DNA of 45,373 bases from Candidatus Chloroploca sp. Khr17 (lineage in GTDB: Bacteria > Chloroflexota > Chloroflexia > Chloroflexales > Chloroflexaceae): contig NZ_RYFF01000043.1 in assembly GCF_004138165.1 (NCBI RefSeq), positions 1-45,373 of the forward strand, written 5' to 3'. The notes under the pieces are model-generated. The model worked only from the letters and a program-made list of their open reading frames with translations, had not been told where the DNA came from and searched no databases. Positions 3,595 through 34,950 of the stretch are shown here, piece after piece; position 1 is the first letter of the stretch, and every line of letters starts with the position of its first letter. The position numbers were made by a program, and so were the translations under genes.

Positions 3595-4086
3595 ATGACC
3601 CTGTTTCTACTCAGCGGTGATCGTTATAACCTGAACGTGCGTTACCTGCCGCTGATGGCCTGGCTCTTTGTGGGCCTGGTGATCTACGGTGTGGTCGATA
3701 TTGTCACACGCATGGTTGATGGCCGCGCTCCGGCTGATCTTGGTGGGTTGACCGCATTGGCGTTGCTGATCAGCCTCGGTCTGTTTGCGCTGCATAAAGG
3801 CGGCGAGATGGTGCTGGCTTCGTTTGACCGGGGCGGTGATCTGATCAGGATTCAGCGCTATGGGATGACCGGGCGGGTGGTGCTGGAACGTCCGTTCAGC
3901 GAACTGGTGGCGATGGATGTGCGCGTGTTGCGCCGTTCGCAACATCGGATTGAACTGCGCTTTCGTTCGGGCGAGCGGCTTCCGCTGACAACCTACTATG
4001 TGGTTACATTTAATTCTGGTGGTCTGAATCGCCTCGCCAGTCTGCTTGAGGTTGAGCCGACCCTGATTGCACCAGTCAAGCGTTGA
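3595..4086 (+). CDS. Small membrane protein of unknown function
   Basis: This 163-residue protein has two hydrophobic segments near the N-terminus (about residues 17-40 and 50-70). A soluble C-terminal domain of about 90 residues is rich in beta-type segments and arginine; its outline is like PH-type membrane proteins, but I do not recognise a family. ATG at 3595 follows GGAAGG at good spacing; a GTG nine bases upstream lies within that site and is less likely. The gene leads a compact plus-strand operon with an EamA transporter, an MBL-fold enzyme and a LysR regulator, spaced by less than 10 bases or overlapping. Confidence 0.6.
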   Translation: MTLFLLSGDRYNLNVRYLPLMAWLFVGLVIYGVVDIVTRMVDGRAPADLGGLTALALLISLGLFALHKGGEMVLASFDRGGDLIRIQRYGMTGRVVLERPFSELVAMDVRVLRRSQHRIELRFRSGERLPLTTYYVVTFNSGGLNRLASLLEVEPTLIAPVKR

Positions 4087-4093
4087 GGTTGGA

Positions 4094-5008
4094 ATGACAA
4101 CCAGTGTGGTTTCGCCCGGACAGTTGCGTCTGGGCGTCATTTTTATTGCCATTGCGGCAACGCTGTGGGGCACCGTTGGCATTGCGACGCGGGCGCTCTT
4201 TCTTATTTCAGACGCCAATCCGCTGTCGGTGGGCTTTTTTCGGCTGGCCCTCTCTTCGCCAGTGCTGCTGCTGGCAACCTATGTGACGCTGGGACGGGCA
4301 GGATTGCGCATTCAGGGACGCGATTTCTGGCTGATGTTGGGGCTCGGTCTGTCGATGGCGCTCTACCAGGTGACCTATTTCGCGGCGATTGAGCGGCTTG
4401 GGGTGACGGTGGCGGTGCTGATCGCGCTCTGTACCTGCCCGGTGATGGTGGCAGTTCTGGCGGCCCCACTGTTGAAGGAGCGGTTGACGGCGACGGTCGG
4501 GATCGCGATGGTGCTTGCGCTGGTCGGGACGGTGTTACTGGTGGGCGGGGGGCCGGATCTGGGGCGCGACCGCAATCAGATGATGATTGGGGTGATGCTC
4601 GCGCTGGGTACCGGGCTTAGTTATGCGTTTGTGACGATGATCAGTCGTACACTGGCCCCACGGTACCATCCGTTGCAACCGATCAGCCTGGGTTTTACCG
4701 CTGGCGCGCTGATGATCCTGCCCTTTGCCCTCGCCGGTGGTCTTGTGCTCGACTATCCGCCCCTGGGCTGGTTGCTCTTGTTGCACCTGGGCTTGATTCC
4801 GACGGCCTTTGGCTATATCCTCTTTTTACGGGGGATGCGCACAACCAGTGCAACCGTGGCAAGCATTCTGACCCTGTTTGAGCCGTTGACTTCGACGATT
4901 CTGGCGTGGTGGCTCTTTCAAGAGCGCCTGGGGCCACTCGGTTTGCTCGGCGCGGCGCTGCTGCTCGGGGCGATGTTTATCTTGATGCGAGGGGATCGCA
5001 CGTCATGA
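4094..5008 (+). CDS. EamA/DMT-family transporter
   Basis: The 304-residue protein consists of two EamA repeats, giving about ten membrane helices. Signature pieces are ATLWGTVGIATR near the N-terminus and, in the second repeat, TSATVASILTLFEPLTSTILAW, typical of drug/metabolite exporters. It probably exports a small metabolite or amino acid from the cytoplasm. The chosen ATG has a GAGGTTGGA site just upstream and begins seven bases after the preceding stop. The 3' end overlaps the next start as ATGA. Co-transcription with a metallo-hydrolase and a LysR regulator suggests an efflux/detoxification unit, but the substrate cannot be read from sequence. Confidence 0.88.
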   Translation: MTTSVVSPGQLRLGVIFIAIAATLWGTVGIATRALFLISDANPLSVGFFRLALSSPVLLLATYVTLGRAGLRIQGRDFWLMLGLGLSMALYQVTYFAAIERLGVTVAVLIALCTCPVMVAVLAAPLLKERLTATVGIAMVLALVGTVLLVGGGPDLGRDRNQMMIGVMLALGTGLSYAFVTMISRTLAPRYHPLQPISLGFTAGALMILPFALAGGLVLDYPPLGWLLLLHLGLIPTAFGYILFLRGMRTTSATVASILTLFEPLTSTILAWWLFQERLGPLGLLGAALLLGAMFILMRGDRTS

Positions 5009-5938: not shown

Positions 5939-6862
5939 ATGCTCAACACCTTTCACCTGCGCACCTTTCTGGCGGTCGTTGACACCGGCAGTTATTCGGC
6001 GGCTGCGCTGGCGCTGCACATGACCCAACCTGCGGTGAGCCAACAGATCCGTGCGCTCGAAGAGCAACTCGGCGCGATCAAGCTCTTTCGGCGGGTCGGC
6101 AAGCGCATGGTACCGACCCACGCGGGTGAAGAATTGCTCACCAATGCGCGGGATCTGGTGCAACTCGCCGAGCGGGCCGAACAAACCATTCTGGCCCTGA
6201 AAGGCCAGGTAGCGGGACGCGTAGTTGTCGGATGCACCGCCAATAGTGGCGAACGCCTCCTTCCCCGGCTGCTGGCCGATTTTCACACGCGCTTTCCTGC
6301 GGTTCACCTGGAATTGATCATCGCCCCGGCTGACACCTTGCTTGATGCGCTTGGTGAACGCGAGATCGCCCTGATCGTGTTGGAAGAACAGCAGCGACGG
6401 CGCGGCCTTGACATCGTCGGGTTGGGTAGCGAACCCCTGGTGGTGATCGGCGCAACCGGCAATCCGCTGCTCAAACAGGCCCAGGTTCCGCCGGGCATCT
6501 TGCGCGAACAGCCCTTGATCTTGCCGCGCCAGGGGTCGCCACTCCGCCGCACGATCGAAGAAGGGCTCCGCAAGCGAAGCGTCTTGCCGGCGGATCTGCA
6601 CCCGGTGCTCGAAACCGATAGCCCCACCGGGGTGCTGCAGAGCGTACGAGCAGGGCTTGGCCTCGCCTTTATGCCCAAGATCTGCCTGCCCGGCCGCAGC
6701 GACGGCGTCGGCACCATCGACTTGGCCGGGCAACCGCTACACCAGGACTGGTTTCTCATCCGGATGCGGGAACGTGGTCAACCACGAGCCGTCCAGGAAC
6801 TCTACGACTACATGCTCAGTCCTGTGGCCCGCACGATCCTGAGCAAGGCAGGGCTGACGTAG
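5939..6862 (+). CDS. LysR-family transcriptional regulator
   Basis: The 307-residue protein has the classic LysR winged HTH at residues 1-60, including YSAAALALHMTQPAVSQQIR, and a periplasmic-binding-like effector domain from about residue 90 onward. It is the last gene of the operon and probably controls the transporter/hydrolase genes upstream, although LysR regulators often act on a divergent promoter and none is adjacent here. Its TAG stop (6860-6862) coincides with the first bases of a repeat element end, so the original C-terminus may have been altered by insertion of that element. Confidence 0.9.
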   Translation: MLNTFHLRTFLAVVDTGSYSAAALALHMTQPAVSQQIRALEEQLGAIKLFRRVGKRMVPTHAGEELLTNARDLVQLAERAEQTILALKGQVAGRVVVGCTANSGERLLPRLLADFHTRFPAVHLELIIAPADTLLDALGEREIALIVLEEQQRRRGLDIVGLGSEPLVVIGATGNPLLKQAQVPPGILREQPLILPRQGSPLRRTIEEGLRKRSVLPADLHPVLETDSPTGVLQSVRAGLGLAFMPKICLPGRSDGVGTIDLAGQPLHQDWFLIRMRERGQPRAVQELYDYMLSPVARTILSKAGLT

Positions 6863-7252: not shown

Positions 7253-8389
7253 TCAATTCTCATTGGGATCAAGCACACGCAGATGCTGATCAAAAAAGGC
7301 GAGCGAGCGTTCGAGATAGAGCCGCTCTTGTGCGCCGCTGAGGGTGTGCGGGCCACCTTCATAGAGATGGAGCGTGACATCTTTACCAGCGGCACGCAGG
7401 GTCTCGGCAATTGCGATGCTAGCCGAGCTCGCCACGGTTGTATCTGCCGTCCCGTGGTGCAGCATCACGGGGGCCTGCGTTGCGCCGAGATAGGTCAGCG
7501 GCGACACGCGGCGATACGCATCGGGGTCGCGTTCAGGCGGGAAGGGCCAGGTCTCGGTGCCCGGATCGCCACCGCTCTGCGCGAAGCGCCGAGCATAATC
7601 AACGGCGAGATCGGCCGGAGCCGGCGCATACACCACCGCAGCCGCAAGCTGATCACTGATTGTGAGCGCGGCAACCGTAATGGACGCCCCACGACTATGG
7701 CCCCACATACCAACCTTGCCCTCGCGGGCCATTGGCAGGCGCTGCACCAGCGGGATCAGGCTGAGCACATCAAGATAATACCCGGTATAAAAAGCATTTG
7801 GCCCCGTATCGCCACCGCCGTAACCCCGATAATCGGGGGCAACCACAAGATAACCACGCTGCGCGGCATAGTCGCTGAACACGCGGCTATCCATCCCCGG
7901 CTGATAGCGCTCGGGCGCAATATAGCCACGATTGGCAATAAGCACGGGGAACGGGCCGGTGCCATCCGGAAGATGCAACAGACCCGTAAGGCGTAGCCCG
8001 TCAACCGACGGATATGTGATGCGATACGTCGTATAACCAGGGCCGCTTGCATACCGCTCACCGATCACAAGCTCGCCCGCGCCATAGCTCAGCGCACGAA
8101 GATCGGGGATCGTCAACCCGGCCACCGGATCGGGCGTCGCCGACGGCGCAGCCGTCGCCGTCGGTGCAGCCGTCGCCGTCGGCGCTGGCGTGGTCGTTGG
8201 CGCAGCCGTCGCCGTCAGCGCGGCCGTCGCCGTCGGTGCAGCCGTCGCCGTCGGTGCAGCCGTCGCTGTCGGCGCGGGCGGTGCTGATCCAACAGGTTGA
8301 CCTGTACAAGCTACCAGCATCGCAAGGCTCAGCAAAATGAGCAGCAGATAGCGGGCGCTCGCAAACCAACGATGAGAGAACATGCTCAA
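7253..8389 (-). CDS. Secreted alpha/beta hydrolase lipoprotein
   Basis: The 378-residue protein starts with a lipoprotein signal peptide ending in LVAC at Cys28, so it should be lipid-anchored outside the cytoplasmic membrane. A Thr/Ala/Pro-rich linker follows, built of repeated PTATAA units. The catalytic domain has GHSRGAS as nucleophile elbow, with Asp in GTADTT and His in GGPHTL as the likely triad. It is closest in outline to dienelactone-hydrolase/prolyl-oligopeptidase-like esterases; the substrate is unknown. The repetitive linker is encoded by near-identical codons and may vary in length between strains. Confidence 0.85.
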   Translation of the reverse strand: MSMFSHRWFASARYLLLILLSLAMLVACTGQPVGSAPPAPTATAAPTATAAPTATAALTATAAPTTTPAPTATAAPTATAAPSATPDPVAGLTIPDLRALSYGAGELVIGERYASGPGYTTYRITYPSVDGLRLTGLLHLPDGTGPFPVLIANRGYIAPERYQPGMDSRVFSDYAAQRGYLVVAPDYRGYGGGDTGPNAFYTGYYLDVLSLIPLVQRLPMAREGKVGMWGHSRGASITVAALTISDQLAAAVVYAPAPADLAVDYARRFAQSGGDPGTETWPFPPERDPDAYRRVSPLTYLGATQAPVMLHHGTADTTVASSASIAIAETLRAAGKDVTLHLYEGGPHTLSGAQERLYLERSLAFFDQHLRVLDPNEN

Positions 8390-9752: not shown

Positions 9753-10442
9753 TTACTCCTCCAGCCCAGTTATCTGGTCAAAGATCAGATCAGCGTAGTG
9801 AATACAGGCTATGCGCACGCTCTGCCAATCATGCCAGCGTGGAGCAAGGTTCTTGTACTCGACGAGATTGACATCATCCAGATCATATGGAAGTGGCTGT
9901 ACAAGCTGAATTTGTAGCTGCTGCAAGGCCGATTCACCATTCGGCTGTGGGTACAAACTGTCAAAAGATCGCAGCGCCTCTACAAAGTTTTCTTCACCCA
10001 TGTGTTCGGCAAGAGCAACAAAATCAAGATAATCACGGGTTGCGTTTCGCTTGAGGATGAGTATACCCTTGATTCGCAAAATTTCTGCTTCGGTAGGGAG
10101 GGTGATCGTTTCGCCACCGATTTCGATCTGATTCACATCCAGCGGTGCAGTTCGAATTAACTGACGTACACCAGTTTCAATACCGTCCAAGCTACCCAGA
10201 ATTTGCACAGGGCGTGTGATCCGTGCAGTTTGCCAACCGGCTGCAGACTCGAGTTCGGCGAGTATCACATCGAACCGCAGCCGTAGATCGGTGATTACGT
10301 GGTCGGCGTCAGTAGATAGGCGGTGGTGCGCATAGACAGCCGAGGCCGTGCCACCTACCAACACTGCGTCTGGGAGAATACGTTGCAGATGGGCCGCAGC
10401 GGCAAGCACCCGTTCCCAATCAGGCAGATTTTCGTTGGGCAT
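9753..10442 (-). CDS. AbiEii/AbiGii-type nucleotidyltransferase
   Basis: The 229-residue protein has the MNT/AbiEii fold: VLVGGTASAVYAHHRLSTDAD near the N-terminus holds the GG-(N)-D/E catalytic pattern, followed by LILKRNATRDYLDFVALAE, the helical region typical of AbiEii-like proteins. In known systems such enzymes transfer nucleotides to tRNA or to a partner and act as toxins or phage-abortive effectors. ATG at 10442 begins MPNENLPDW. The gene overlaps the 3' end of a small upstream gene by 23 bases, as expected for a coupled two-component module. Confidence 0.7.
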   Translation of the reverse strand: MPNENLPDWERVLAAAAHLQRILPDAVLVGGTASAVYAHHRLSTDADHVITDLRLRFDVILAELESAAGWQTARITRPVQILGSLDGIETGVRQLIRTAPLDVNQIEIGGETITLPTEAEILRIKGILILKRNATRDYLDFVALAEHMGEENFVEALRSFDSLYPQPNGESALQQLQIQLVQPLPYDLDDVNLVEYKNLAPRWHDWQSVRIACIHYADLIFDQITGLEE

Positions 10443-10641
10443 AATGATTCCAAAAGTGGTAACGCTGCGCGTATGGATCGGCGATGTAAACTGCGCAGAC
10501 GCGCAACACTTTCTCCCGAACGGACGGATCCGTGAGAAGAGCCGTGCGCAAAGCAGCCCAATCCCGACGCTTGCCACGGGCAATAATGTCGTCAATTGCG
10601 GCCAGGGTGTACCCCTGGTGGGTAAGGTGACGATGGTTCAT
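10420..10641 (-). CDS. Small partner protein of the nucleotidyltransferase (antitoxin-like)
   Basis: The 73-residue protein starts MNHRHLTHQGYTLAAIDDII and continues with a DWAALRTALLTDP segment. It is helical and basic, and paired with an AbiEii-like nucleotidyltransferase through a 23-base overlap. Proteins of this style are commonly the first gene of such pairs, so an antitoxin or adaptor role is inferred from position, not shown. The start is only six bases after a TATACT -10 box, which would give a leaderless or nearly leaderless mRNA. Confidence 0.55.
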   Translation of the reverse strand: MNHRHLTHQGYTLAAIDDIIARGKRRDWAALRTALLTDPSVREKVLRVCAVYIADPYAQRYHFWNHYAQRKSA

Positions 10642-10722: not shown

Positions 10723-11004
10723 TCATACCTCGGCCAGCAGCCCGTTGGCGGCCATGTCGTTCAAGACCGCCAGCACATCGGTCTCGCAGGTCTCCTGATC
10801 CACCGCGTACTTCTGCATCAACTGGCTGCAGAGATCGGCCACGGCCACGGGCTGCGCCAGCCGGTTCCAGATGTCCGCGCCGACCCGATCCAGGCTGTAG
10901 TAGACGCCCCGCTCCAGGTCCATCATCACCAGTTCGTCATCCACCGGGCTAGCCATGACATCCTCGGCACGCACCACGGTTGAGTCCAGCGTTAGCTCAG
11001 GCAC
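10723..11004 (-). CDS. PqqD-family RiPP recognition protein (lasso B1-like)
   Basis: The 93-residue protein has the PqqD fold outline: an N-terminal strand pair (VVRAEDVMASPVDDELVMMD), the diagnostic LERGVYYSLDRVGADIWNRL, and a C-terminal helix bundle. Stand-alone PqqD proteins bind the leader of RiPP precursors and bring it to processing enzymes; in lasso clusters they are called B1. It overlaps the preceding CxxCxxCC gene by eight bases and is the last gene of the cluster. A B2 leader protease normally follows or is fused to B1 and is not found here. Confidence 0.85.
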   Translation of the reverse strand: MPELTLDSTVVRAEDVMASPVDDELVMMDLERGVYYSLDRVGADIWNRLAQPVAVADLCSQLMQKYAVDQETCETDVLAVLNDMAANGLLAEV

Positions 11005-11566
11005 GTTCGTTTCCTTTCATCTCTGTGCTTTCAACTACTCCCGGCTTGAGCCGAAAATTCCGATCTAGGCGCAATTGCAAGCTGGCATAATCGAGCAGAA
11101 AGGCAGCGTGTTGCCGACGCCATGCCGCATCTTGCGCATGCTGGGTCGCTTCCCAGGCACGAAACAGCTCCTTCAGCGATCCGTTGACTTCGCCGACCCG
11201 CTCACGCAGCTGCGCCCAGACCAGATCCGCCAGTTCTGTGGTCTGGGTGATGGTGACATGGGCTTGCTCCAGACTGATCTCGCCAGCATCGAAGCGGCGC
11301 AAAAGCTGACAGCGGAAGGCGTGGCAAATACTGGGTCGCCACTCCTGGTAGATGGTGCAGACGCGGTCATGGTGGTGATGGCAGGGCTGGGCAAAGCCCG
11401 TCCCGGTTTTGGTCGGCAACACGATGAAGCCGCCCGCCTCCAACCGCGCCAGATCATCCTCCGGCGTAAGCCGCGCCCACGCAAAGATCGTGCCGTCGCA
11501 GCAGAGGCCGCAGCGCACACAGAGGCCCTGAGCCGGAGAGGCGACAACAGGCGTCAATTCACTCAT
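10997..11566 (-). CDS. YkgJ-family cysteine-cluster protein in the RiPP operon
   Basis: This 189-residue protein carries CVRCGLCCDG near residues 16-25, a GTGFAQPCHHHHDRVCTIY segment and a third block RPSICHAFRC. That is the zinc/iron-chelating cysteine cluster of the YkgJ/UPF0153 family. Function in that family is mostly unknown; metal binding or redox chemistry is likely. Its start overlaps the sulfotransferase stop as ATGA and its end overlaps the PqqD gene, so it is an integral operon member. It takes the position where lasso clusters usually have the B2 protease, but shows no Cys-His-Asp transglutaminase pattern. Confidence 0.75.
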   Translation of the reverse strand: MSELTPVVASPAQGLCVRCGLCCDGTIFAWARLTPEDDLARLEAGGFIVLPTKTGTGFAQPCHHHHDRVCTIYQEWRPSICHAFRCQLLRRFDAGEISLEQAHVTITQTTELADLVWAQLRERVGEVNGSLKELFRAWEATQHAQDAAWRRQHAAFLLDYASLQLRLDRNFRLKPGVVESTEMKGNERA

Positions 11567-12402
11567 CCCATATACCCCAATCTGGCCATCACCGGCCCGT
11601 GATCCGCAACAATCCGCTCGATCTGGGCGGGCGTCAACTCCTCCTGCCAGCTTGCGGCCTGGCCGCGGCGGAAGAAGCGGGGCGCACCCATGAGCCGCTC
11701 CTTGAAACCGGCGGCTTCCTCTTGGGCCTGCAAACGGTCAAAGCGGGACTGGGTCAGGGCCGCAGCCAGCCGTTCTGCATCCACGGGCAGACCGGCCGCC
11801 TCTAGAATTCCGGCAAAGGTTGCTTCCGGGTCGGCGTGCAGATCCTCGTAGCGCACCAGATGCACGGGCAGATCGGTCTGATCCAGCCAACTGGTGACAT
11901 GCTGGCTCCATGATCCCATTGGCTGGTGCAGTTGGGACGCAAGCCGATCCGGGCGGGTGGCGATGGCGTGATCCACAGTCCGCATTTGTTCAATGGCGGC
12001 GTCGATGCTCAAGTTGTAGTGGTTGGCATACGAGGGCGCTACGCCGCGGGGATCCCGCACAATGTAGACGGTGGCAGCGGTGGTCTCCGGCGGGAAGATA
12101 GATGCGCCGTCGGCGTTGCGCCGCCAGCGGTCATGCACTTTGATAAAGAGCGGCTCCGCGGCTTCCACGGCCAGTTGACGGTAGACATCCGGGCGGTAGC
12201 GCTCGATCTCGGCCGGCGTCAACTCCGACGCTTCCAGCCCGATGACGCGGTCGAAGAGGTCCCGGTTGCCCGCGTGCAGGCTCACATCCACCGCGTTGAT
12301 GTCCAGTTCATCCCGCTCTGGATGGCTGTACGCAGTCAAGAAGAGGCGCACCCAGGTATTGCCCGATTTGGGGTAGGAGGCCAGCCAGACAAGGCGCTGC
12401 AT
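11563..12402 (-). CDS. PAPS-dependent sulfotransferase
   Basis: The 279-residue protein has the 5'-phosphosulfate loop YPKSGNTW near residue 12 and the 3'-phosphate motif RDPRGVAPSY in the middle, followed by RYEDL; these define the cytosolic-type sulfotransferase fold. It should move sulfate from PAPS to a hydroxyl or amine. The precursor peptide has no Tyr in its tail, so Ser/Thr hydroxyls are the candidate acceptors if the peptide is the substrate. ATG at 12402 follows GGAG with 7-base spacing, and that site lies in one arm of a 21-bp inverted repeat. Confidence 0.85.
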   Translation of the reverse strand: MQRLVWLASYPKSGNTWVRLFLTAYSHPERDELDINAVDVSLHAGNRDLFDRVIGLEASELTPAEIERYRPDVYRQLAVEAAEPLFIKVHDRWRRNADGASIFPPETTAATVYIVRDPRGVAPSYANHYNLSIDAAIEQMRTVDHAIATRPDRLASQLHQPMGSWSQHVTSWLDQTDLPVHLVRYEDLHADPEATFAGILEAAGLPVDAERLAAALTQSRFDRLQAQEEAAGFKERLMGAPRFFRRGQAASWQEELTPAQIERIVADHGPVMARLGYMG

Positions 12403-12405
12403 ATT

Positions 12406-12464
12406 CAATCTCCAATCTCTACTCTCTAATCTCACGGTGATTGGAGAGTAGAGATTGGAGATTG
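12406..12464. promoter_or_regulatory. 21-bp inverted repeat covering the sulfotransferase RBS
   Basis: Arms 12406-12426 and 12444-12464 are perfect inverted copies built of CTCCAATCTCTA-type text. On the minus-strand mRNA the distal arm contains the ribosome binding site of the sulfotransferase, and the whole hairpin encodes the last residues and stop of the kinase-like gene. Folding would hide the RBS, so ribosome passage through the kinase gene may be needed for sulfotransferase translation. It could also be a simple inserted repeat. Confidence 0.5.
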
Positions 12465-13402
12465 TTCGTGAAATCCACCTCCACCGCGTCGGCCAACTCC
12501 GTCAGCCGAAACTCCCCTTCCGGGCGACTCACGCGCACGATGCGCGCCTGGTTGGCCACGGCCACCGCGCGCTGAAAGTGCGCGCCGTGCAGCTCCATGC
12601 GCTTGACCACCAGTTTCTGCCAGGTGTGGTCGAGGAGGGCGTTGAACTTGCGCGCATCCCGCCGTTCTTCCAACACGATAGTGGGCTGGTTGTGGGTGGC
12701 GAGCACGTAGATGGCCGCCAGCCGCACCGCGGCCGTCGCCAGTGGGCCGGTGACCGGGACGACAAACTTCTCCAATTCCGGGCGCACCCGGGGCAGTCCC
12801 TCCGTGGGCTGGCCCAGCGCCGCCGCGCTGTCGGCCCACAGCTTGGTGATCTGCACCCCCGGCTCCACCCAGGCCACGCCGTCGGCGTCCAGCCGCACCG
12901 CGGCCAGGTCTTCGGCCAGCATGGGATAGCCCCGGCGCAGGAATTCGTTGAGCAGGGTGGATTTGCCCGCGCCGGAATGGCCCATAAAGAGGACTGCGCC
13001 CGCCGGAGTAACGATGGCGCTGGCATGGAGCGGCAGCAGCCCGCGCTGGTGTAGCAGCAAGGCCGCACCCGTACCCAGAAGCAGCAGTCGCACCATCTCG
13101 TCGTCGGCATCTGGCTGGCGTTCGACGAGGATCTCGTTGCCGCCGCGCACCAACAGTCGGGCCACACCGGGCAGGCCGAAGCGCGCCTCCTCCTTCGTTA
13201 CCTGGCGTAGGGGGCCGGCGGCCAACGCAGAAGGCGGCGCGGGCGGCACATCGTCCCAACGCGCAACCACATCTGGCGCACGGTCTGGTGGCGCAGCGCG
13301 CAGCTCCGGGCAGGCCAGGGGCAGTTGCCAGATCAGGCCATAAGCGCGATGGCGGGCAACGCCGGAAAATTCGTGGGACGCAGTTGCATTGGGATTGGGC
13401 AC
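12419..13402 (-). CDS. HPr kinase-like protein of a RiPP (lasso-type) cluster
   Basis: About 327 residues. A Walker A loop GHSGAGKSTLL lies in the middle, followed by PMLAEDLAAVRLDADG and VQITKLWADS, the layout of HPrK/P-like proteins found beside lasso peptide genes. Paeninodin-type relatives phosphorylate a Ser at the end of the precursor. The reading frame extends to an ATG at 13468, but that start has no ribosome site and lies in a hairpin; GTG 13402, preceded by AAAGG at long spacing, fits the domain start better. The C-terminal codons fall in an inverted repeat, so the native end may have been replaced. Confidence 0.75.
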   Translation of the reverse strand: MPNPNATASHEFSGVARHRAYGLIWQLPLACPELRAAPPDRAPDVVARWDDVPPAPPSALAAGPLRQVTKEEARFGLPGVARLLVRGGNEILVERQPDADDEMVRLLLLGTGAALLLHQRGLLPLHASAIVTPAGAVLFMGHSGAGKSTLLNEFLRRGYPMLAEDLAAVRLDADGVAWVEPGVQITKLWADSAAALGQPTEGLPRVRPELEKFVVPVTGPLATAAVRLAAIYVLATHNQPTIVLEERRDARKFNALLDHTWQKLVVKRMELHGAHFQRAVAVANQARIVRVSRPEGEFRLTELADAVEVDFTNNLQSLLSNHREIRE

Positions 13403-13439
13403 GATAGACGGATACCTTTCACTTGGTTGGGTGGTTTGG

Positions 13440-13480
13440 CTCTCCTTTTGGATGCAGGAATCCTGCATCTAAAAGGAGAG
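13440..13480. promoter_or_regulatory. Hairpin between precursor and kinase genes
   Basis: A 41-base dyad with 20-base arms around a single base (13460) starts eight bases after the precursor stop on the minus strand. One G:T pair interrupts it. No T run follows, so it is more like an mRNA-stabilising or attenuating hairpin that could raise precursor levels over the downstream enzymes. Confidence 0.55.
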
Positions 13481-13487
13481 AGTTCAT

Positions 13488-13652
13488 CTATTTTGTCGCG
13501 GAACCACCATCACTGCCCGAACCAGTAGACTTTGTTGTATCCAGGCTGACGTGCAGGCGCTGGAGGGTGGGGCGTTGCCAGGGCTGGCGGGAGGTGGTCT
13601 GGGTGGGCTCCTCCTGCGGGGTGGTCATGGGTCGTTCGTGTTGCTCTTGCAT
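13488..13652 (-). CDS. RiPP precursor peptide (lasso-like), 54 residues
   Basis: A short gene behind a strong AAAGGAG site. The peptide starts MQEQHERPMTTPQEEP and has the leader motif WQRPTLQRL at residues 25-33, matching the YxxPxLxxL signature read by PqqD-type proteins in lasso clusters, with Trp for Tyr. The tail, from LDTTKSTG to SDGGSATK, is Ser/Thr/Gly-rich. A Thr at the -2 position would allow cores starting at Lys41 (ring to Asp48, 8 residues) or Ser42 (7 residues). No bulky plug residues follow Asp48, so a threaded lasso is not assured. It sits between the cyclase and kinase genes. Confidence 0.7.
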   Translation of the reverse strand: MQEQHERPMTTPQEEPTQTTSRQPWQRPTLQRLHVSLDTTKSTGSGSDGGSATK

Positions 13653-13698
13653 GGTTTTTTCTCCTTTGGGTAAGCATGAAAAAAGGTTACGCGATGGA

Positions 13699-13726
13699 AA
13701 CCGGCCGGCGGGAAGCCGGGCCGGTT
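13699..13726. terminator. Hairpin over the cyclase stop codon
   Basis: AACCGGCC (13699-13706) and GGCCGGTT (13719-13726) pair around a GC-rich loop. On the minus strand the hairpin starts within the cyclase stop codon and is followed 13 bases later by a T6 run. It may act as a partial terminator between cyclase and precursor genes. Confidence 0.45.
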
Positions 13727-15584
13727 ATTCCCGGTTGAGAAATAGCCCGGCCAGCAGCCCGCGCAGCAGGATCGTCCCGGCGCGGTGGGTGGTCAGGGCG
13801 GTCGCCTCCCGCTGCACGTCGGCCCAGGCCCGGCGCATTTTGACCACATCCACATAGCTGTTGGCCGGGGCTGCGTTCACAGCAGCCAGCGCGTCTGCCA
13901 CCTCGCCGGCGCTGGCCCGCAGCCGCCCAGCCAGGTCGGCGGATTGGCGGCCCCGCTTGCGGTTCAGCCGCACTTTGTCAGGCAGCAAGCCCGCCATGGA
14001 CGCCCGCATCATCCAGCGATCCCCGCCGTCTGGGCTGTCGAAGATGGGGTCAGGCACGGCGATAGTATAGGCCATCACCCGCTTGTCCAGGGTTGGATCC
14101 CGCACCTCCAGCCCGGCGGCTGCGCCCTGCCGCGCCCACAGGTCGCCCACCCGATCCGCACCAGGCTGAATGATGCCGCAGCGTTTGTCCCGGGGACTGC
14201 GCCAGATCTCCGGCAAATCAATGTCCTTGCCCATCGCTGCGATACGCCGCTGGGAGAGGTCCATACGCCGGGCAAAGTCGGGGCGGATGGCCGCGCCCGC
14301 CCAATCCTGGCTGCGAGCGCGCCACTGCATCAATGGACGCAGCGCCCACAGGGGCAGAATGCGGCGGATGCCTTCCTTCATGCCTCCATTCCGGAACGCC
14401 GCCAGATGCGAACGCAATTCGGGCGCGCCGGTCCAACTCACGGTCGCGTTGCCCCCCTGCCCAGTGAGGAGCACACCCAACCCCAGGGCTTGCGCCTGAT
14501 CCAGCAGGTCGGCGATCCAGAAGTAGTTGCTGGCGGCGTGGGCTGGTTCTGGCATCACCGCCAGGGTGCGGCGGATGCCCTGCATAGGCGTGACAGCCGC
14601 GCTGTCCAGGAGGATGTGATCCACATTCGCCCAGTGGGCCGCGGTGGCCGCGGCAAAGAGGGTCTCGTCGCCAAAGCCTTGGGGGCCGACGGTCTGGCTG
14701 GTGTCGTAGATGGGCACCGTGGTGAAGGCAGTGAGCCGTTTGCCCTGCTCGCCCAGGGCGCGGGCGGCCAGCGCAGTCACCGAGCCGGAATCCAGCCCAC
14801 CGCTGAGGGTGACGCCCACGGGCCGGTAGCTGCGCAGCCGGTCACGCACGGCCCGGTCGTAGATTTCCAGAAAGCCCTGCACGTAGTCGTCCCGGCTGGG
14901 CAGGCGCAGCTCAGGCGTCTCCTCCAGCCGCCAGTAGCGCCAGACCCGCGTGCCCTGGGGCATGACGGTCATAGCGTGGGCGGGGGGCAGGCGCTGGATG
15001 TCCAGGTCGATGGTCTGGGGGCCGTGGTAGGCGGGCCAGGAGATAAGCACCTGGGCCAGGTAGAGTTCGTTGAGCCGCCGCGGTGCGCCGATGGCGTAGA
15101 GGGCCTGGGGTGCCGAGGCAAAGGCGAACTGCTCGCCCTGCTGCCAGTAGACCAGGCTGGTATTGCCGTGGTGGTCGCGAGCCAGGAAGAGCTTGCGTTC
15201 GTCGGGATGCCAGACCGCGAAAGACCAGTCGCCCAGCAAGTGATCCGGGCATTCCTCGCCCCACTTGAGGTAGGCGCGCAGGATCAGATCGCTGTCGGGC
15301 GTGGTGGGGCGGTCGGTAGGAGGAATGGCGAAGTAGTCGCAAAGCTCGTCCCGGTTATCAATGCGCGCCTCTGCGGTGATCGCCAGGCGGGCATCGGCCA
15401 CCCAGCGCGGCAGCCGCTCGTACACGGCTTCCGGCGTGTTGAAGAGCAGGCGCTGGCCCAGGCCGCAGTGCGCGTCATGCCAGAGGCCGCCGCCGTCTGG
15501 TCCCCAGTGGGCCAGAGCCGCGTCCATGGCAGCCAGTTTCTCAGGCAGGGCGGATGCGCTCAAAGATCCAAAGATGCCGCTCAT
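13725..15584 (-). CDS. Asparagine synthetase-like cyclase of a RiPP cluster (lasso C-like)
   Basis: The 619-residue protein has an N-terminal class II glutaminase-like domain (to about 200) and an AMP-forming synthetase domain with the PP-loop SGGLDSGS near residue 260. Lasso cyclases use this fold to adenylate an Asp or Glu side chain and close a macrolactam with the core's N-terminus. The first residues are MSGIFGS: the catalytic Cys2 of true glutamine-dependent asparagine synthetases is Ser, which argues against ammonia transfer from glutamine and for a cyclase. It is the first gene of the cluster, 72 bases before the precursor gene. Confidence 0.85.
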   Translation of the reverse strand: MSGIFGSLSASALPEKLAAMDAALAHWGPDGGGLWHDAHCGLGQRLLFNTPEAVYERLPRWVADARLAITAEARIDNRDELCDYFAIPPTDRPTTPDSDLILRAYLKWGEECPDHLLGDWSFAVWHPDERKLFLARDHHGNTSLVYWQQGEQFAFASAPQALYAIGAPRRLNELYLAQVLISWPAYHGPQTIDLDIQRLPPAHAMTVMPQGTRVWRYWRLEETPELRLPSRDDYVQGFLEIYDRAVRDRLRSYRPVGVTLSGGLDSGSVTALAARALGEQGKRLTAFTTVPIYDTSQTVGPQGFGDETLFAAATAAHWANVDHILLDSAAVTPMQGIRRTLAVMPEPAHAASNYFWIADLLDQAQALGLGVLLTGQGGNATVSWTGAPELRSHLAAFRNGGMKEGIRRILPLWALRPLMQWRARSQDWAGAAIRPDFARRMDLSQRRIAAMGKDIDLPEIWRSPRDKRCGIIQPGADRVGDLWARQGAAAGLEVRDPTLDKRVMAYTIAVPDPIFDSPDGGDRWMMRASMAGLLPDKVRLNRKRGRQSADLAGRLRASAGEVADALAAVNAAPANSYVDVVKMRRAWADVQREATALTTHRAGTILLRGLLAGLFLNRE

Positions 15585-15886: not shown

Positions 15887-15992
15887 AGGCAAGCAAGCAA
15901 GCTTTGCGGGAAAAGTTCGGAGCGCAAAACAGGGCACCAGCGAGCAGGGGCCATGGGGCGCAGATACCAAGCCCTGTTATCCCGTCTCCTTC

Positions 15993-16093
15993 AAAATCCA
16001 TAGCCAACCCGGCGCAGCGACGACCGTAGCATTGAGCATACCCGTCATGCCGCCCTCACGACAGGGCAGCGAACAAAACGTCACTTTTCGCAT
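15993..16093. repeat. Dispersed repeat C, copy 1
   Basis: About 100 bases starting AAAATCCATAGCC align with 21353-21453, with scattered differences. Shared blocks include GGCGCAGCGAC, CCCGTCAT and ACAGGGC. No coding potential is evident. The second copy lies directly next to a fragment of the RiPP cyclase gene. Confidence 0.6.
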
Positions 16094-16119
16094 GAGCAAA
16101 GGGGCACCGCCAGGGCCAG

Positions 16120-16265
16120 GGCACCCCTTGCGGGTGCCCTGGCCCTGGCCCTGGCCCTGGCCCCTGCCGGGCCGGGGGCACCCGCAACGGGACGGGCACC
16201 CGCAACGGGACGGGCACCCGCAACGGGACGGGCACCCGCAACGGGACGGGCACCCGCAAGGGGGG
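16120..16265. repeat. GC-rich tandem repeats
   Basis: Repeated CTGGCC hexamers (about 16135-16165) are followed by about 4.7 copies of an 18-base unit GGGCACCCGCAACGGGAC (16176-16260). GGGCACCCGCAAG closes the array, and the inverted CTTGCGGGTGCCC occurs upstream near 16128. They lie just past the 3' end of the methyltransferase gene. Confidence 0.85.
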
Positions 16266-16268
16266 CCC

Positions 16269-16946
16269 CTACTGCATGCGTTTGTTCGCAAAAAGTCGCG
16301 ATGCTCGACCATCGCGATTCGAGTAGAGCGCAATGCCATTGCCCCACTGATCCGGGTACCGTCCTTTTTGGGCAAAAACACCTTGAGCGACAACGGTTTC
16401 GTGGCACGTAGGATTGTTGTAAATGATGACCAATTCCCGCTCGACCTCATGAACAGACCGCATCAGGGCCTGAACGACCGGTCGCATCACGCTTACGGGA
16501 AAGGGATTATACAAATAGACGATGTTGTACGCGTCATAACCGGAGAACATTGATGCATCACCATGGAATACGTTCACCCGCTCTGCGTTTAACCGTTTGA
16601 AATTTCGCGTGGCGATGGCGGCGATCGGTTCCGACAACTCGATGCCGTCCACGCGCACGAACGGGAAAGCAAGCATCGTTCGCAGTGCACTTCCCTTGCC
16701 GCACCCGATGTCAAGAATTGCATCCTTCGGCGTAATCTTCAAATCGGTCAAGATATGCTTGAGGTATTTGTTGCCAGAAGGAGAAGATCCAAATGCGGAA
16801 AGTGGATCAAGGCCTGCCTCTTCGGCGCGTAGCGTGGTCAAGAAATCCAACCCATAAAGCCTGTCGGCGAAGATCATGACGGCACGTGCCACGTTCGATG
16901 GAGTACATGATATAAGCTTCATATGCTGGTGTGAAATCTGTTCCAT
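16269..16946 (-). CDS. Class I SAM-dependent methyltransferase-like protein
   Basis: The 225-residue protein has the SAM-binding motif I ILDIGCGKGSALR around residue 77, then an acidic motif II position in DGIELS and NVFHGDAS, with YLYNPFP at motif IV. This is the class I methyltransferase fold; the text is closest to small Rossmann methyltransferases of uncharacterised target. It has no co-directional neighbour and ends beside tandem repeats. If the fold-back elements to its right are attC sites, this gene would sit just outside the array. Confidence 0.75.
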   Translation of the reverse strand: MEQISHQHMKLISCTPSNVARAVMIFADRLYGLDFLTTLRAEEAGLDPLSAFGSSPSGNKYLKHILTDLKITPKDAILDIGCGKGSALRTMLAFPFVRVDGIELSEPIAAIATRNFKRLNAERVNVFHGDASMFSGYDAYNIVYLYNPFPVSVMRPVVQALMRSVHEVERELVIIYNNPTCHETVVAQGVFAQKGRYPDQWGNGIALYSNRDGRASRLFANKRMQ

Positions 16947-17388: not shown

Positions 17389-17733
17389 CTACTGTAGCGA
17401 TATCGCTACGAGTGTGGAGAGTTTTTGGAGTACTTCTGTGATAACTGATTGGGGTGATTGACAGGCAAATTGAGCATTCCGACTTCTCCAATCAAGGCTC
17501 TTGACTTGATCAGATAAAACAACACCGATTACTGGGAGATCTTTTGGTAACGCCACTTCAAATGGATACCCTTTGATTTGACTCGTAATTGGGCAGAAGA
17601 TAGCAAGACCGACCTTGCCATTATAACTGGATGGTGAGAGAACAATTGCTGGACGCCTGCCTGCGTGCTCTGAACCTGCTTGGGGATTGAAGGTGAGCCA
17701 AACAATATTGCCTCGATCCGGAACGTACGACAT
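17389..17733 (-). CDS. MazF/PemK-family toxin (mRNA endoribonuclease)
   Basis: The 114-residue protein has the PemK/MazF opening RGNIVWLTFNPQAGSEHAGRRPAIVLSP, of which the RG-x-V/I-W and GHE/SEHAGRRP positions are the RNA-binding and catalytic region, and a later DQVKSLDWRSR, also conserved. MazF toxins cut mRNA at short motifs and are neutralised by a MazE partner. ATG 17733 overlaps the MazE stop by one base (TAATG). An in-frame GTG six bases upstream is possible but unnecessary. Confidence 0.9.
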   Translation of the reverse strand: MSYVPDRGNIVWLTFNPQAGSEHAGRRPAIVLSPSSYNGKVGLAIFCPITSQIKGYPFEVALPKDLPVIGVVLSDQVKSLDWRSRNAQFACQSPQSVITEVLQKLSTLVAISLQ

Positions 17734-17975
17734 TACCACGCCTCATTTCCTTCTGGTCTCCCGGTGTTCTGTTCGCCGTGGAGATTGTCGTGAGTAATAT
17801 CGGCGAGCAATTCCTCAAGTGAATAGGTCGGAAGCGGGAGAGGCGCAATAACAAGTTTTCCTTCCACAAGCGAAATCTCGACTGGCGTCTCGTCGGTGAG
17901 GCCGATCTCTATCGCAAACGATTTAGGGATTCGAAGGGCAAGACTGTTGCCCCATTTTTGAACGCGGCTCTGCAT
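17733..17975 (-). CDS. MazE-family antitoxin (AbrB/SpoVT DNA-binding domain)
   Basis: The 80-residue protein begins MQSRVQKWGNSLALRIPKSF, a textbook SpoVT/AbrB swapped-hairpin domain, with a flexible acidic tail that would wrap the toxin. TAAGGAGGGG gives a strong ribosome site. As usual for MazE it should bind its own promoter, where a dyad overlaps the -10 box. It is the first gene of the MazEF pair lying between two attC-like elements. Confidence 0.9.
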   Translation of the reverse strand: MQSRVQKWGNSLALRIPKSFAIEIGLTDETPVEISLVEGKLVIAPLPLPTYSLEELLADITHDNLHGEQNTGRPEGNEAW

Positions 17976-20596: not shown

Positions 20597-21231
20597 GCCA
20601 CGCACGCTTTTTCCGCTACATCCAGGACGCACCTTGGTACGCGGACTTCTTACAGCCCGTACTGGATGAATTAAAGTCCTTGCCGCCCGGCGCGACGGTA
20701 TTGGATATGGGAACCGGTGCGGGCAAGCTGATTGCCATGGGCCAGGCCCTGCCCGACGTACAATGGGAAGGTGCGGATGTGGATGCTGCCATGCTAGCGG
20801 AGGCGCGCAAACGACCGGCACTCCGCCACACTGCATTGCATCACTTATCTGCCGGCAGTACGCTGCCCTTCACCGATGCGCGCTATGAAGCCGTCACGTT
20901 TTGTTCTGTGCTGTTCCTCCTGTCCGACCCTATGCCATTGTTGGAAGAAACCTGGCGGGTGCTACGCCCACACGGCTTCATTGTCGCGCTGACGCCATCC
21001 GGCAGCGGCCAATCAAGGCCAATTCTGAGGAACCAAATTGGCTGGCGCTTCCACAACTGGACCTGGTTCGTCTGGAGACAGATGACCGCTGCTGCGGGTC
21101 AACGTTGGGGGCAGCAGGCGCCCTTGGCCGCATTTGCTCGACGGCACGGCGCTACCTACCAGAAGCAAGCGGTGTTTCACGAAATGGCAACCATTGAAAT
21201 GGTATTCTACGGTGAGAGAATGCCAGTCTGA
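20593..21231 (+). CDS. Class I SAM-dependent methyltransferase (UbiE/Methyltransf_11 type)
   Basis: The 212-residue protein has motif I VLDMGTGAGKLI near residue 37, an acidic DVDAAMLAEA loop that binds the SAM ribose, and SVLFLLSDPMPLLEETWRVL in the core. It should methylate a small molecule or lipid. Coupling to two membrane proteins under an Rrf2 regulator suggests membrane or lipid modification, but that is inference. Confidence 0.85.
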   Translation: MSHARFFRYIQDAPWYADFLQPVLDELKSLPPGATVLDMGTGAGKLIAMGQALPDVQWEGADVDAAMLAEARKRPALRHTALHHLSAGSTLPFTDARYEAVTFCSVLFLLSDPMPLLEETWRVLRPHGFIVALTPSGSGQSRPILRNQIGWRFHNWTWFVWRQMTAAAGQRWGQQAPLAAFARRHGATYQKQAVFHEMATIEMVFYGERMPV

Positions 21232-21259
21232 ATGTGACAATGTAAGCAAACCAGGAAAC

Positions 21260-21353
21260 AAGCACCTGGGCCAGGTAGAGTTCGTTGAGCCGCCGCGGTG
21301 CGCCGATGGCGTAGAGGGCCTGGGGTGCCGAGGCAAAGGCGAACTGCTCGCCC
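21260..21353 (-). pseudogene. 94-bp fragment of the RiPP cyclase gene
   Basis: These 94 bases are identical to 15045-15138, inside the asparagine-synthetase-like cyclase gene, in the same orientation. On the minus strand they still encode the same residues (GEQFAFASAPQALYAIGAP and on). A few bases beyond the left end also resemble the source. Identity over 94 bases implies a recent event. It is followed directly by dispersed repeat C. Confidence 0.85.
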
Positions 21354-21453
21354 AAAATCCATAGCAACCCGGCGCAGCGACAACCGTAGCGTTGAGCGTA
21401 CCCGTCATTCCGCCCACACGACAGGGCGGCGATTAAGGCGTCACGTTTCGCAT
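21353..21453. repeat. Dispersed repeat C, copy 2
   Basis: This region starts AAAATCCATAGC and aligns with 15993-16093. The junction with the cyclase fragment is exact, suggesting that the repeat marks a recombination or insertion endpoint. Confidence 0.6.
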
Positions 21454-21460
21454 ATGTCGC

Positions 21461-23977
21461 CTACCGCTGCTCATGCGGCAATATGCCAAAATCAACGCCC
21501 AGGAAGCGACCCAGGGCATTGCTGCGCCAGACCCAACGAAGCAGAAAGAGCCAGGCGATGGCGCATCCCAGGATCAAGCCAAAACTCGCGAGGCTTGGCA
21601 ATTGCAAGGTTGCCCAGCCGCGGAAGAGCGGGACAAAGAGGATCGTCAGATAGATGCCGGCACACACGGCAGCCAGGATCGTCGGGCGCCAGTCGCCGCT
21701 GAGTTCGTCGCCGCCGACCCACCACACGGTTGGTGGTTCGACAAAGACAACCAGCAAGAGGCCAGTCAAGAGCAAAAAGGTTGTCAGTGAACTCTGGGCG
21801 TAGGTGATGATGGTCGCCCCAAAAACAATCTGTTCCTCTGGCGGAATGCTCAGGCCACCTTGCACGACGAACTCGATGAACATTGACCCGTAGAGCACAA
21901 TCAGGCCAAAAATGCCCGAGAGCAGCGCCGTCGGCAGCAAGAAGCGCAACAGACGTCGGATCAGGCCAACGCGCGCGATTGCGCCAGGGCGTGCCCAGAG
22001 GGCAATGAGCGGTGTGGGCACGCCTACGGCCAGAAAGGTCAACAGGGCGGAGTGGATCAGCGGAATTGGAAAGATGGCGCTACTCACCATCAAGGCCGAC
22101 AGCGTAATCATCGCCAGGATCGCAGTATGTGTCAGGAAGAGGCGCAAGACATCCTGCATGCCATTGACAATGCGCTGTCCTTCTTCGACCGCTGGTGAGA
22201 GCACCGCAAACGAGTCATTCGTCAGGATAATATCGGCAACATTGCGTGTCGCCGCGCTGCCGCTCTGCATCGCAATGCCGAGATGGGCCTGTTTGAGCGA
22301 AAGCACGTCGTTGACGCCATCGCCTACCATCGCAATATAGTGCCCGCGTGCCCGCAACGCCTTGATCAGGCTCTCTTTTTGCTGCGGCGTGATGCGCCCA
22401 AAGATCGTCGCACTGGCGGCAGCCTCGGCGAATTCGCTTTCGCTCATCTGCGCCAGTTGTGGGCCCGAGACAAGCTTGATATCGCTTGGCAAGCCGGCTT
22501 GTTTCGCCAGCGCTGCGACGGTTTCGGGGCTATCACCCGAGATAATCTTGGGCTGCACACCAGCACGCAGAAAGCGTTCCAAGGTCTCGCGAGCTTCGGG
22601 GCGCAATTCGTCACTCAGGCTGATCAGCCCGATGGGTTGCAGTGGCGGCAACTGCGTTGCGTCACCCTGATTGCTGAGCAGCGCCGGGTCGGGATGATAG
22701 GCCACAACCAGGACGCGCAACCCCTGATCTGACCACGCCTGCATCTGCTGCTGCATCGTCTCGTCATATGGGTGATCGTGCAGATAGGGCTGCAACATTT
22801 CGAACGCCCCCAGCGCATAGATGCCGCGCCGGTCGGCTGCCCCAAAAGCAATGGCGCTCCACTTGCGTGCCGAGGAAAAAGGCACCTCTTCAACAACCTG
22901 GCGCGCCTGGCGGGGATAGGCCGCCGCGACCGCCTCACTGGTCTTATTGCCAGCCTGCGTGCTTGCCATCATCTCGCCCACGATGTCCTGCAACTCGGCT
23001 TCGCCCATTCCCAGAGGAAAGACCATGTTCATTTGCAGCCGATTCGCCGTCAGGGTGCCGGTCTTATCAACACAGAGCGTATCAATATTGCTGAGCGACT
23101 CGATCGCGTTGGATTGCTGCACCAGCACGCCGAATTTAATGATCCGCACCGCACTGATCGCATACGCAACGGCAATGCTCAGAAAGAGGCCATTCGGAAT
23201 CAGCCCGGCTACCACCGTCACATCCTGCACACTCTCGGTGAAACCGCGGGTCTGGATGAACGAGTTGAGCACAAGCATGACTTCGAGATAGAGCACAATC
23301 AGCAAAAAGACGCGCACCAGCACATTGATATCCTGCTGGAGGGGCGTCAGCACACGTTTGTAGCTGCGTGCGCCAGCGGTAATCTGATTCGAGAGGCTTG
23401 CGTTGCCAACCTTCTCGGCACGGTAAAAGGCGCTGCCCGAGACGCAATAGCTCCCCGAAAAAACCTTGTCTCCATTTGTTTTGACGATCAAGTCCGACTC
23501 GCCGGTCAGTTGGGACTCATCAACTTCGATCTGCCCCTTGACGATCACGCTATCAACGATGATCTGGTCACCTGCATCCACTCTGAGGATATCGTCGAGC
23601 ACAATATCGTCAGGCGCAAGCTGCTCTTCTTGCCCATCGCGCAGCACAATTGCGCGGGGAAGGTTGAGCAGCGCAATCTGGTCGAGTTGCCGTTTGGCCT
23701 GCAACTCCTGGATGCTGCTGACCAGCGCATTAATAAAGACCACGCCCGCCGAGATCAGCGCATCAAAGGGGCGCCCGAGCAGCAGCAGGATAAGGCCGAG
23801 GCCAAAGAGCATATTGTTGATAAACGTAAAGACATTCTCACGCAGAATCTGCCCATAGCTACGCGTCGCAATGCCGGTCACCTTGTTGACCTGGCCGTTG
23901 GCAATGCGTTGCTGAACCTCCTGGGCTGTCAGGCCCTGCAGTGGAAGCGTGCTACCAGTCTCAACATCCTGAACCAT
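21461..23977 (-). CDS. P-type ATPase, cation-translocating (CtpE-like)
   Basis: The 838-residue protein has all P-type ATPase signatures: TGESDLI in the actuator domain near residue 148, the phosphorylated Asp in CVDKTGTLTANR near residue 313, and GDGVNDVLSLKQAHLGIAM in the hinge. About ten membrane helices are expected. The M4 ion-binding stretch reads IPNGLFLSIAVAYA, where Ca2+ pumps have PEGL; a related layout occurs in CtpE-type calcium pumps. The ion cannot be fixed from sequence. TGGAG precedes the ATG. It is a single-gene unit. Confidence 0.9.
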   Translation of the reverse strand: MVQDVETGSTLPLQGLTAQEVQQRIANGQVNKVTGIATRSYGQILRENVFTFINNMLFGLGLILLLLGRPFDALISAGVVFINALVSSIQELQAKRQLDQIALLNLPRAIVLRDGQEEQLAPDDIVLDDILRVDAGDQIIVDSVIVKGQIEVDESQLTGESDLIVKTNGDKVFSGSYCVSGSAFYRAEKVGNASLSNQITAGARSYKRVLTPLQQDINVLVRVFLLIVLYLEVMLVLNSFIQTRGFTESVQDVTVVAGLIPNGLFLSIAVAYAISAVRIIKFGVLVQQSNAIESLSNIDTLCVDKTGTLTANRLQMNMVFPLGMGEAELQDIVGEMMASTQAGNKTSEAVAAAYPRQARQVVEEVPFSSARKWSAIAFGAADRRGIYALGAFEMLQPYLHDHPYDETMQQQMQAWSDQGLRVLVVAYHPDPALLSNQGDATQLPPLQPIGLISLSDELRPEARETLERFLRAGVQPKIISGDSPETVAALAKQAGLPSDIKLVSGPQLAQMSESEFAEAAASATIFGRITPQQKESLIKALRARGHYIAMVGDGVNDVLSLKQAHLGIAMQSGSAATRNVADIILTNDSFAVLSPAVEEGQRIVNGMQDVLRLFLTHTAILAMITLSALMVSSAIFPIPLIHSALLTFLAVGVPTPLIALWARPGAIARVGLIRRLLRFLLPTALLSGIFGLIVLYGSMFIEFVVQGGLSIPPEEQIVFGATIITYAQSSLTTFLLLTGLLLVVFVEPPTVWWVGGDELSGDWRPTILAAVCAGIYLTILFVPLFRGWATLQLPSLASFGLILGCAIAWLFLLRWVWRSNALGRFLGVDFGILPHEQR

Positions 23978-34458: not shown

Positions 34459-34726
34459 AGGACCATCCCATCCGTTTGTGGGCAACATTGCTATGGTTCA
34501 GTTGATGTTCAAGGTCATGATCATTATACCATCCTCATAATGGCTCCCACTGCCTCCTTATCACGACTGGAAGATACGTCTGTGATATGATACGACTGGG
34601 CTTGATTAACCTCAAAGACCTATTCCCAAAAGAGGGGCGTCAGGCGCAGCAGCGCCAAGCCCAACTGGTGCTTCGTCCGCAGGTGTGCCTGGTTATCTGA
34701 ATCGTGCTCACAAAAGGAGACCTGGA

Positions 34727-34831: not shown

Positions 34832-34950
34832 ACAAGCTTTCAAAAGGGCCGGATCAACGTTATACGTCGGCACCACGATGGGGGCAAACTGCACAGGAGT
34901 CTGAAACCTTGTCTTAACAAGATGATCACGATCCGGCTGGCCGAGTTATG

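Follow-up and report, generated by a model that had tools for sequence, protein, structure and literature searches.

A lasso-type gene cluster without its own B2 protease in Candidatus Chloroploca sp. Khr17, and the single B2 encoded elsewhere in its genome

Introduction

How might a lasso-type gene cluster release its product from the leader peptide when it encodes no leader protease? The question is raised by a 45,373-nucleotide stretch of Candidatus Chloroploca sp. Khr17 DNA (contig NZ_RYFF01000043.1; "the window" below means this whole stretch), whose minus strand carries, from 15584 down to 10723, genes for a cyclase, a precursor peptide, an HPr-kinase-like (HprK-like) protein, a sulfotransferase, a CxxCxxCC (YkgJ-like) protein and a PqqD-family protein. 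All six genes are present where an initial annotation had placed them (Table 1). That annotation allowed two readings of the missing B2 protease, a new subclass of ribosomally synthesized and post-translationally modified peptide (RiPP) or a lasso pathway whose protease acts in trans, and we found the second to be the better supported. Paeninodin-like clusters contain A, C, an HPr-kinase homologue K, B1, B2 and D (PMC8498205), and we consider it probable that the window holds such a cluster, which has lost its own B2 and is served in trans by the only B2 of its genome. Below, G codes denote genomes (G000 being the window's own), L codes fetched loci and C codes contigs.

Results

The initial annotation saw no B2 within the cluster, and we found none in the whole window: tblastn with G000's own B2 returned nothing below E 0.047, and a PF13471 search of all of G000 gave no match on the window's contig at E <= 1. 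Searching the genome for a B2 elsewhere, as the annotation had proposed, yielded a single one above the Pfam cut-off, an orphan on C68 (L018:6039-6683) that adjoins a tRNA-Arg; three further PF13471 matches (E 0.17-0.27) all lay under the cut-off, and there was no match to other cluster genes in the 12 kb fetched around the orphan. G001 and G002 each have one B2 syntenic with it (L031 and L032), and the orphan genes of the three genomes are under purifying selection (pairwise ratios of nonsynonymous to synonymous substitution rates, dN/dS, of 0.17, 0.29 and 0.28 over 152 codons). In a B2 tree, the orphans of G000, G001, G002 and G061 grouped with the B2s of L088, L013 and L033 in a single clade (98/97), separate from the comparison group of six B2s from other lasso clusters of Chloroflexota. 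The four B2s tested (C68, L013, L030 and L033) all passed NF033537.

B2 was absent beside other cyclases as well. G000 has a second lasso cluster (C55, L017), which carries its own PqqD and is likewise without a local B2, and the single B2 of G061 lies alone on C87, apart from every cyclase match, with the lasso-type cyclases of that genome on other contigs. Excluding the decayed or cut L012, L055, L056 and L087, a B2 stood beside a lasso-type cyclase in eight loci (L019, L020, L021, L033, L074, L088, L089 and L090) and not in seven (the window, L011, L017, L053, L057, L091 and L092); the assemblies are drafts, and for L057, L087 and L091 a B2 could lie beyond the contig end. The only B2 of G120 is that of L074, leaving none for L091, and none was found in G229, whose cluster is cut by a contig end. 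We rejected G529 as a further orphan-B2 genome: its sole B2 stands with PqqD and HprK in a PqqD-B2-HprK group (L142:5671-7278, C53) with no cyclase match within 12 kb, and its cyclase was found on C57 (L092) with a PqqD and HprK of its own, a split arrangement. As a separate observation, L017 comprises HprK, PqqD and cyclase genes, and its precursor, at 6059-6373, ends in ...YHTPRMEDYGAVNELTRSASYTGSFESDLALGYTSTAP.

The order of the six genes is not a matter of chance, since L011 holds the identical order at 46-72% protein identity. The conservation outside this strain that the initial annotation had asked about is thus found, and we rejected the idea that the cluster is restricted to the strain: it also occurs in L011 and L056 and, with fewer genes, in L087 and L088. 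Between the window and L011, dN was below dS in five of the six genes (ratios about 0.14-0.39, with dS of 1.1-1.6, near saturation), the YkgJ-like gene being saturated; when L011 was compared with L056, dN was likewise well below dS for the sulfotransferase gene and for the YkgJ-like gene. At E <= 1e-50, at least 6 of 400 genomes from the phylum had a relative of the window cyclase (best three candidates per genome scored); among 61 closer genomes, 4 had one at 1e-40. Both counts include the window's own genome.

Judging from the relatives, the ancestral place of B2 is directly after PqqD. The intact L088 (G073) has cyclase, precursor, HprK, sulfotransferase, PqqD and B2 in that order, the B2 immediately following PqqD, and L055 (G061) has a broken B2 in the same position. 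In L013, from a metagenome-assembled genome titled Litorilinea aerophila, the cluster is reduced to a scar in which the cyclase start runs into the PqqD end; past the scar come the same small open reading frame (ORF) and nucleotidyltransferase as in the window, this flank being 91% identical in nucleotides over 1047 bp, and then, without a gap, a B2, which the window lacks after 9753. An adjacent B2 in related clusters, seen in L088 and L074 with a broken copy in L055, speaks against the new RiPP subclass that the initial annotation entertained; in L074, B2 and a YkgJ-like gene even occur together.

The remaining enzymes are those of a lasso pathway with additional modification. The cyclase matched PF00733 (E 9.3e-31) and GATase_7 in Pfam, and its start, MSGIF, lacks the N-terminal glutaminase catalytic Cys of true asparagine synthetases, as befits a lasso cyclase. 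Its best NCBIfam model was the lasso cyclase NF033535 (E 8.9e-107), at 358 bits below the curated cut-off of 525, and in a tree it grouped with the cyclases of L088, L087, L011 and L012 (support 100/100). The kinase gene has the HprK-like character found in paeninodin-like clusters: its nearest models were HprK_rel_A/B and Hpr_kinase_C, the matches to TIGR04352 (HprK_rel_A) and PF07475 being weak and all of them under cut-off, it carries the Walker A motif GHSGAGKST, and it is 68% identical to the L011 copy. HprK homologues adjoin lasso cyclases in L011, L053, L074, L088 and others. The sulfotransferase (PF00685, E 8.3e-26) has the motif YPKSGNTW, which we take to be the signature of the 3'-phosphoadenosine-5'-phosphosulfate site, and G000 encodes an adenosine 5'-phosphosulfate kinase. 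The PqqD passed the lasso PqqD model NF033536 (80.6 bits against a cut-off of 80), which makes it the discrete RiPP recognition element (RRE), or B1.

The precursor has the marks of a lasso substrate. Its leader ends in WQRPTLQRLHVSLDTT, with the lasso-type motif W..P.L..L and Thr at -2, and the proposed core, KSTGSGSDGGSATK, follows at the canonical lasso spacing from that Thr, with D8, its sole acidic residue, within the range of positions 7-9 expected of the Asp or Glu in a lasso ring. In an alignment with three homologues, W, R, P, L, L, S, D, T, G, S and D were invariant. We tabulated seven precursors of the cyclase clade (those of the window, L011, L056 and L055, two of L087, and that of L088, picked by hand): the leader motif was present in six, Thr replacing the last Leu in L088; Asp stood at core position 8 in six and at position 9 in L088; Gly4 occurred in 7/7 and Ser5 in 6/7. 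The core ends in Lys and so has no C-terminal Ser of the kind phosphorylated in paeninodin, Ser5 being the conserved serine instead. The L055 precursor gave a weak paeninodin-family match under the cut-off (E 0.022), and that of L011 no NCBIfam match.

New here is the presence, in lasso clusters of two lineages, of an accessory CxxCxxCC protein with eight cysteines. The window's YkgJ-like protein matched PF03692 at 27.2 bits (cut-off 23), and eight cysteines were invariant across 12 aligned sequences of this type. In the window, L011 and L056, three loci without a local B2 match, its gene is tightly packed between those for the sulfotransferase and PqqD; a stump remains in G001, and no match was found in L055 or L088. 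In L074, which comes from another family (G120), a YkgJ-like gene separates B2 from the cyclase gene within a lasso cluster that also has NTP_transf_5, precursor and HprK genes; its product is 26% identical to the window protein and scores 21.4 bits with PF03692, just below the cut-off. Relatives were found in at least 12 of 400 genomes and, in a second search with an overlapping set, at least 14 of 396 (in large sets, the best eight candidates per genome were scored). Outside G000, G001 and G120 they showed no lasso gene in the fetched flanks (1.5 kb for all relatives, about 6 kb for part), and we therefore rejected a general linkage between YkgJ-like and lasso genes. We also set aside a B2-like match beside the YkgJ-like gene in L128/L133 (E 1e-4, 50 amino acids), which is not a B2 in that frame.

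An AlphaFold model of the protein had a mean pLDDT (predicted local distance difference test) of 61, with most of the cysteine part below 50, too low for the model to be of use, and a sequence search of the PDB gave no meaningful match. A plasmid collection held no YkgJ-like match; the cyclase found three distant records there. In the literature searched, we found no paper on lasso peptides and YkgJ, nor on CxxCxxCC proteins and RiPPs. A core Lys was present in all four precursors from clusters with a YkgJ-like gene (the window, L011, L056 and L074) and in three of seven from clusters without one (present in L020, L053 and L090; absent from L017, L055, L088 and L089), L087 being left out of the count because its contig ends ahead of the YkgJ place. 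This co-occurrence of sequence features is suggestive only. As a separate observation, a deletion at L068:1546-1875 (G001:C83) has joined the start of a YkgJ-like gene, in frame, to almost all of PqqD, and the frame is open.

The last four genes of the cluster are closely spaced, and the YkgJ-like gene overlaps either neighbour by a few bases. A strong stem-loop follows the precursor stop (-27.6 kcal/mol, z -6.25). L011 (z -5.5) and L056 (z -4.0) have equivalently placed stem-loops that differ in sequence, those in L055 (z -1.1) and after both L087 precursors (z -2.0 and -1.4) being weak. A second hairpin lies between the HprK-like and sulfotransferase genes (-39.7 kcal/mol, z -11.0). The HprK-like gene more likely starts with the GTG at 13402 than at 13468, because the latter sits within the hairpin after the precursor stop. 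For the sulfotransferase, the ATG at 12402 (MQRLVWLASYPKSGNTW) is more likely than 12435, as the L011 homologue starts likewise.

Table 1. Features of the cluster and of related elements in the window
Feature	Position	Strand	Evidence
Lasso-type macrolactam cyclase (C protein), 619 aa, Asn-synthase fold	13725-15584	-	PF00733, GATase_7, NF033535
Precursor peptide	13488-13652	-	Alignment with homologues
Stem-loop right after precursor stop codon	13440-13480	-	Folding energy
HprK-like peptide kinase	12419-13402 (open frame from 13468)	-	Weak TIGR04352 and PF07475; Walker A
25-bp hairpin at HprK/sulfotransferase junction	12406-12464	-	Folding energy
Sulfotransferase	11563-12402	-	PF00685
CxxCxxCC (PF03692, YkgJ-like) protein, 189 aa	10997-11566	-	PF03692
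Discrete RRE / B1 (PqqD family)	10723-11004	-	NF033536
Small ORF	10420-10641	-	Same pair with nucleotidyltransferase in L013
AbiEii-type nucleotidyltransferase	9753-10442	-	PF08843, 23.7 bits (cut-off 22.5)
Second-copy cyclase gene fragment (codons about 147-200)	21200-21361	-	Amino acid and nucleotide identity to cyclase

The surroundings of the cluster contain several further elements. The cyclase gene fragment is 70% identical to the cyclase over 54 amino acids and 98% identical in nucleotides over 103 bp; beside it is a piece that, over 102 bp, shares 88% identity with sequence lying ahead of the intact cyclase gene (about 15990-16095). Upstream of the cluster, 16098-16272 is filled with dense GC-rich palindromic repeats of the GGGCACCCGCAAGGGGTGCCC type, similar repeats flank the decayed G001 cluster (L068) on either side, and such repeats may drive rearrangements. 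The small ORF and AbiEii-type nucleotidyltransferase (9753-10641), perhaps a toxin-antitoxin pair, lie between the cluster and the place that B2 takes in L013. Elsewhere in the window, a MazE-type antitoxin gene (17733-17975) precedes a PemK/MazF-like toxin gene (17389-17739), and the stretch 28608-36692 includes both an aromatic amino acid lyase (35076-36692) and an amidohydrolase (28608-29900) that has an imidazolonepropionase-like domain. Transporters among the 39 window ORFs scanned with Pfam were an EamA-type permease (4067-5008) and a P-type ATPase (21461-23977).

Discussion

For a paeninodin-like cluster served in trans, we infer a pathway, with its order of steps and the threading of its product, as follows. 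PqqD would bind the W..P.L motif of the leader; the HprK-like kinase and the sulfotransferase would add phosphate and sulfate to Ser or Thr residues of the core, with the conserved Ser5 perhaps the target of the kinase; the CxxCxxCC protein could make or assist a further change; the C68 B2, the only one of the genome, would cut after SLDTT; and the cyclase would then link core residue 1 to Asp8.

Several observations weigh against this interpretation. The weak point of the argument is that no lasso cluster was found in G001 or G002, which keep the orphan B2 under purifying selection, so that this B2 may have another or an additional job. The two genomes together gave seven NF033535 matches, six of which we checked by their starts: three begin MCGI and resemble asparagine synthetases, two begin MSGVFG (L137 and L138) and one otherwise (L141), and the seventh is a 255-amino-acid frame in G001 (L051) with no clear start. 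L137 and L138 have no N-terminal Cys and lie within polysaccharide-type loci, and no PqqD, HprK or B2 match was found in L137, L138 or L141. In addition, neither Pfam nor NCBIfam matched the window precursor, and no lasso precursor model recognized it; Lys as core residue 1 is, we presume, unusual for a lasso; the core tail, GGSATK, has no bulky plug; no ATP-binding cassette (ABC) exporter, the D gene of paeninodin-like clusters, was found among the 39 ORFs scanned; and decay is frequent in such clusters (L013, L055, L056 and L068). As a side observation, the MSGVFG protein (about 647 amino acids, Asn-synthase-like) is conserved within polysaccharide-type loci of three sister genomes, the G000 copy being L139.

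The frequent decay invites the view that the window's cluster is itself a relic, its B2 gone, its other genes not yet decayed, and without a product. Degraded copies are indeed common: besides the L013 scar there is one in G001 (sulfotransferase end, YkgJ start, PqqD), the copies in L055 and L056 (G061) are truncated or frame-shifted, L012 is a solitary cyclase, and the window holds its own cyclase fragment; these scars and broken copies imply that the cluster has been lost, wholly or partly, several times. We nevertheless regard a relic as unlikely, given that all six frames are open and conserved with respect to L011, itself without a local B2, and that dN falls below dS in the comparisons above.

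Alternatively, a protease other than a B2, for example a signal-peptidase-like one, might remove the leader, the product being a modified linear or simply looped peptide. The lasso-related phosphorylated RiPP (LPP) clusters of Bacillota share the HprK, discrete RRE and leader motif with lasso clusters and use a SipW-like peptidase (PMC13381572), and the window encodes a Peptidase_S9/S15-type alpha/beta hydrolase (7253-8389). However, that gene lies outside the cluster and is parted from it by others, no signal peptidase match was found among the 39 ORFs scanned, a lasso cyclase is present and the B2 slot is ancestral in the relatives, all of which makes this alternative improbable. That the YkgJ-like protein has itself taken the B2 role and defines a new RiPP subclass, as its tight setting in three clusters without a B2 might suggest, is highly improbable, because in L074 it stands side by side with a B2, L088 has its B2 after PqqD and no YkgJ-like match, and the description of PF03692 is that of a domain chelating zinc or iron and not that of a protease; the place it occupies is also not that of B2, contrary to the initial annotation.

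A bolder extension of the trans-acting B2 reading, which we offer as a tentative and rather doubtful idea, has two parts: the YkgJ-like protein would be a new lasso tailoring enzyme, a small iron-sulfur protein that, by FliB-like chemistry, alters one residue of the core (perhaps a Lys) in a peptide also bearing phosphate and sulfate; and one conserved genome-wide B2 would serve several lasso clusters, letting clusters shed their own protease. An iron-sulfur tailoring role is thinkable by analogy, because the flagellin lysine methyltransferase FliB has a comparable cysteine motif, which its authors compare with PF03692, with eight conserved cysteines and one [4Fe-4S] cluster (PMC8598068). FliB differs in its spacing, CX4CX3CC, and in its substrate, flagellin (PMC8598068), and the parallel with the window protein is drawn at the level of the cysteine motif.

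The initial annotation held a kinase and sulfation on one peptide to be unusual, a claim that is now weaker. HPr kinase homologues occur in the paeninodin and related lasso clusters, and sulfotransferase and nucleotidyltransferase genes in some Firmicutes lasso clusters, the available text not saying outright that kinase and sulfotransferase share a cluster (PMC8498205); kinases are found in 85% of complete ruminal lasso clusters (PMC7533575). HPr kinase and sulfotransferase genes in Firmicutes lasso clusters were thus already known, and what is new is the loss of the local B2 together with the CxxCxxCC protein. Genome mining that insists on finding B2 next to the cyclase would overlook or misread clusters of this kind. 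These genomes are a natural setting in which to ask whether several precursors can share a single B2, and the CxxCxxCC protein is a candidate tailoring step for lasso peptides.

Among known systems, pseudomycoidin of Bacillus pseudomycoides reportedly, from the title of a paper on it, can be synthesized in vivo without leader and leader peptidase, in what is said to be an engineered case. Its cluster resembles the window's in being a kinase-bearing lasso cluster and, unlike it, is placed among clusters with a B2 and a nucleotidyltransferase (PMC8498205). The LPP family of Bacillota resembles the window in its RRE, HprK-like kinase and leader motif, the kinase there acting on an internal core Ser (S3), but the LPP core set lacks a macrolactam cyclase and relies on a SipW-like peptidase (PMC13381572), neither of which fits the window. 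Compared with paeninodin-like clusters, the window has no local B2, no ABC exporter that we saw, an extra CxxCxxCC protein and a core without a C-terminal Ser, whereas the cyclase, the discrete PqqD-type B1, the W/YxxPxL leader, the HprK-like kinase and the sulfotransferase are common to both (PMC8498205).

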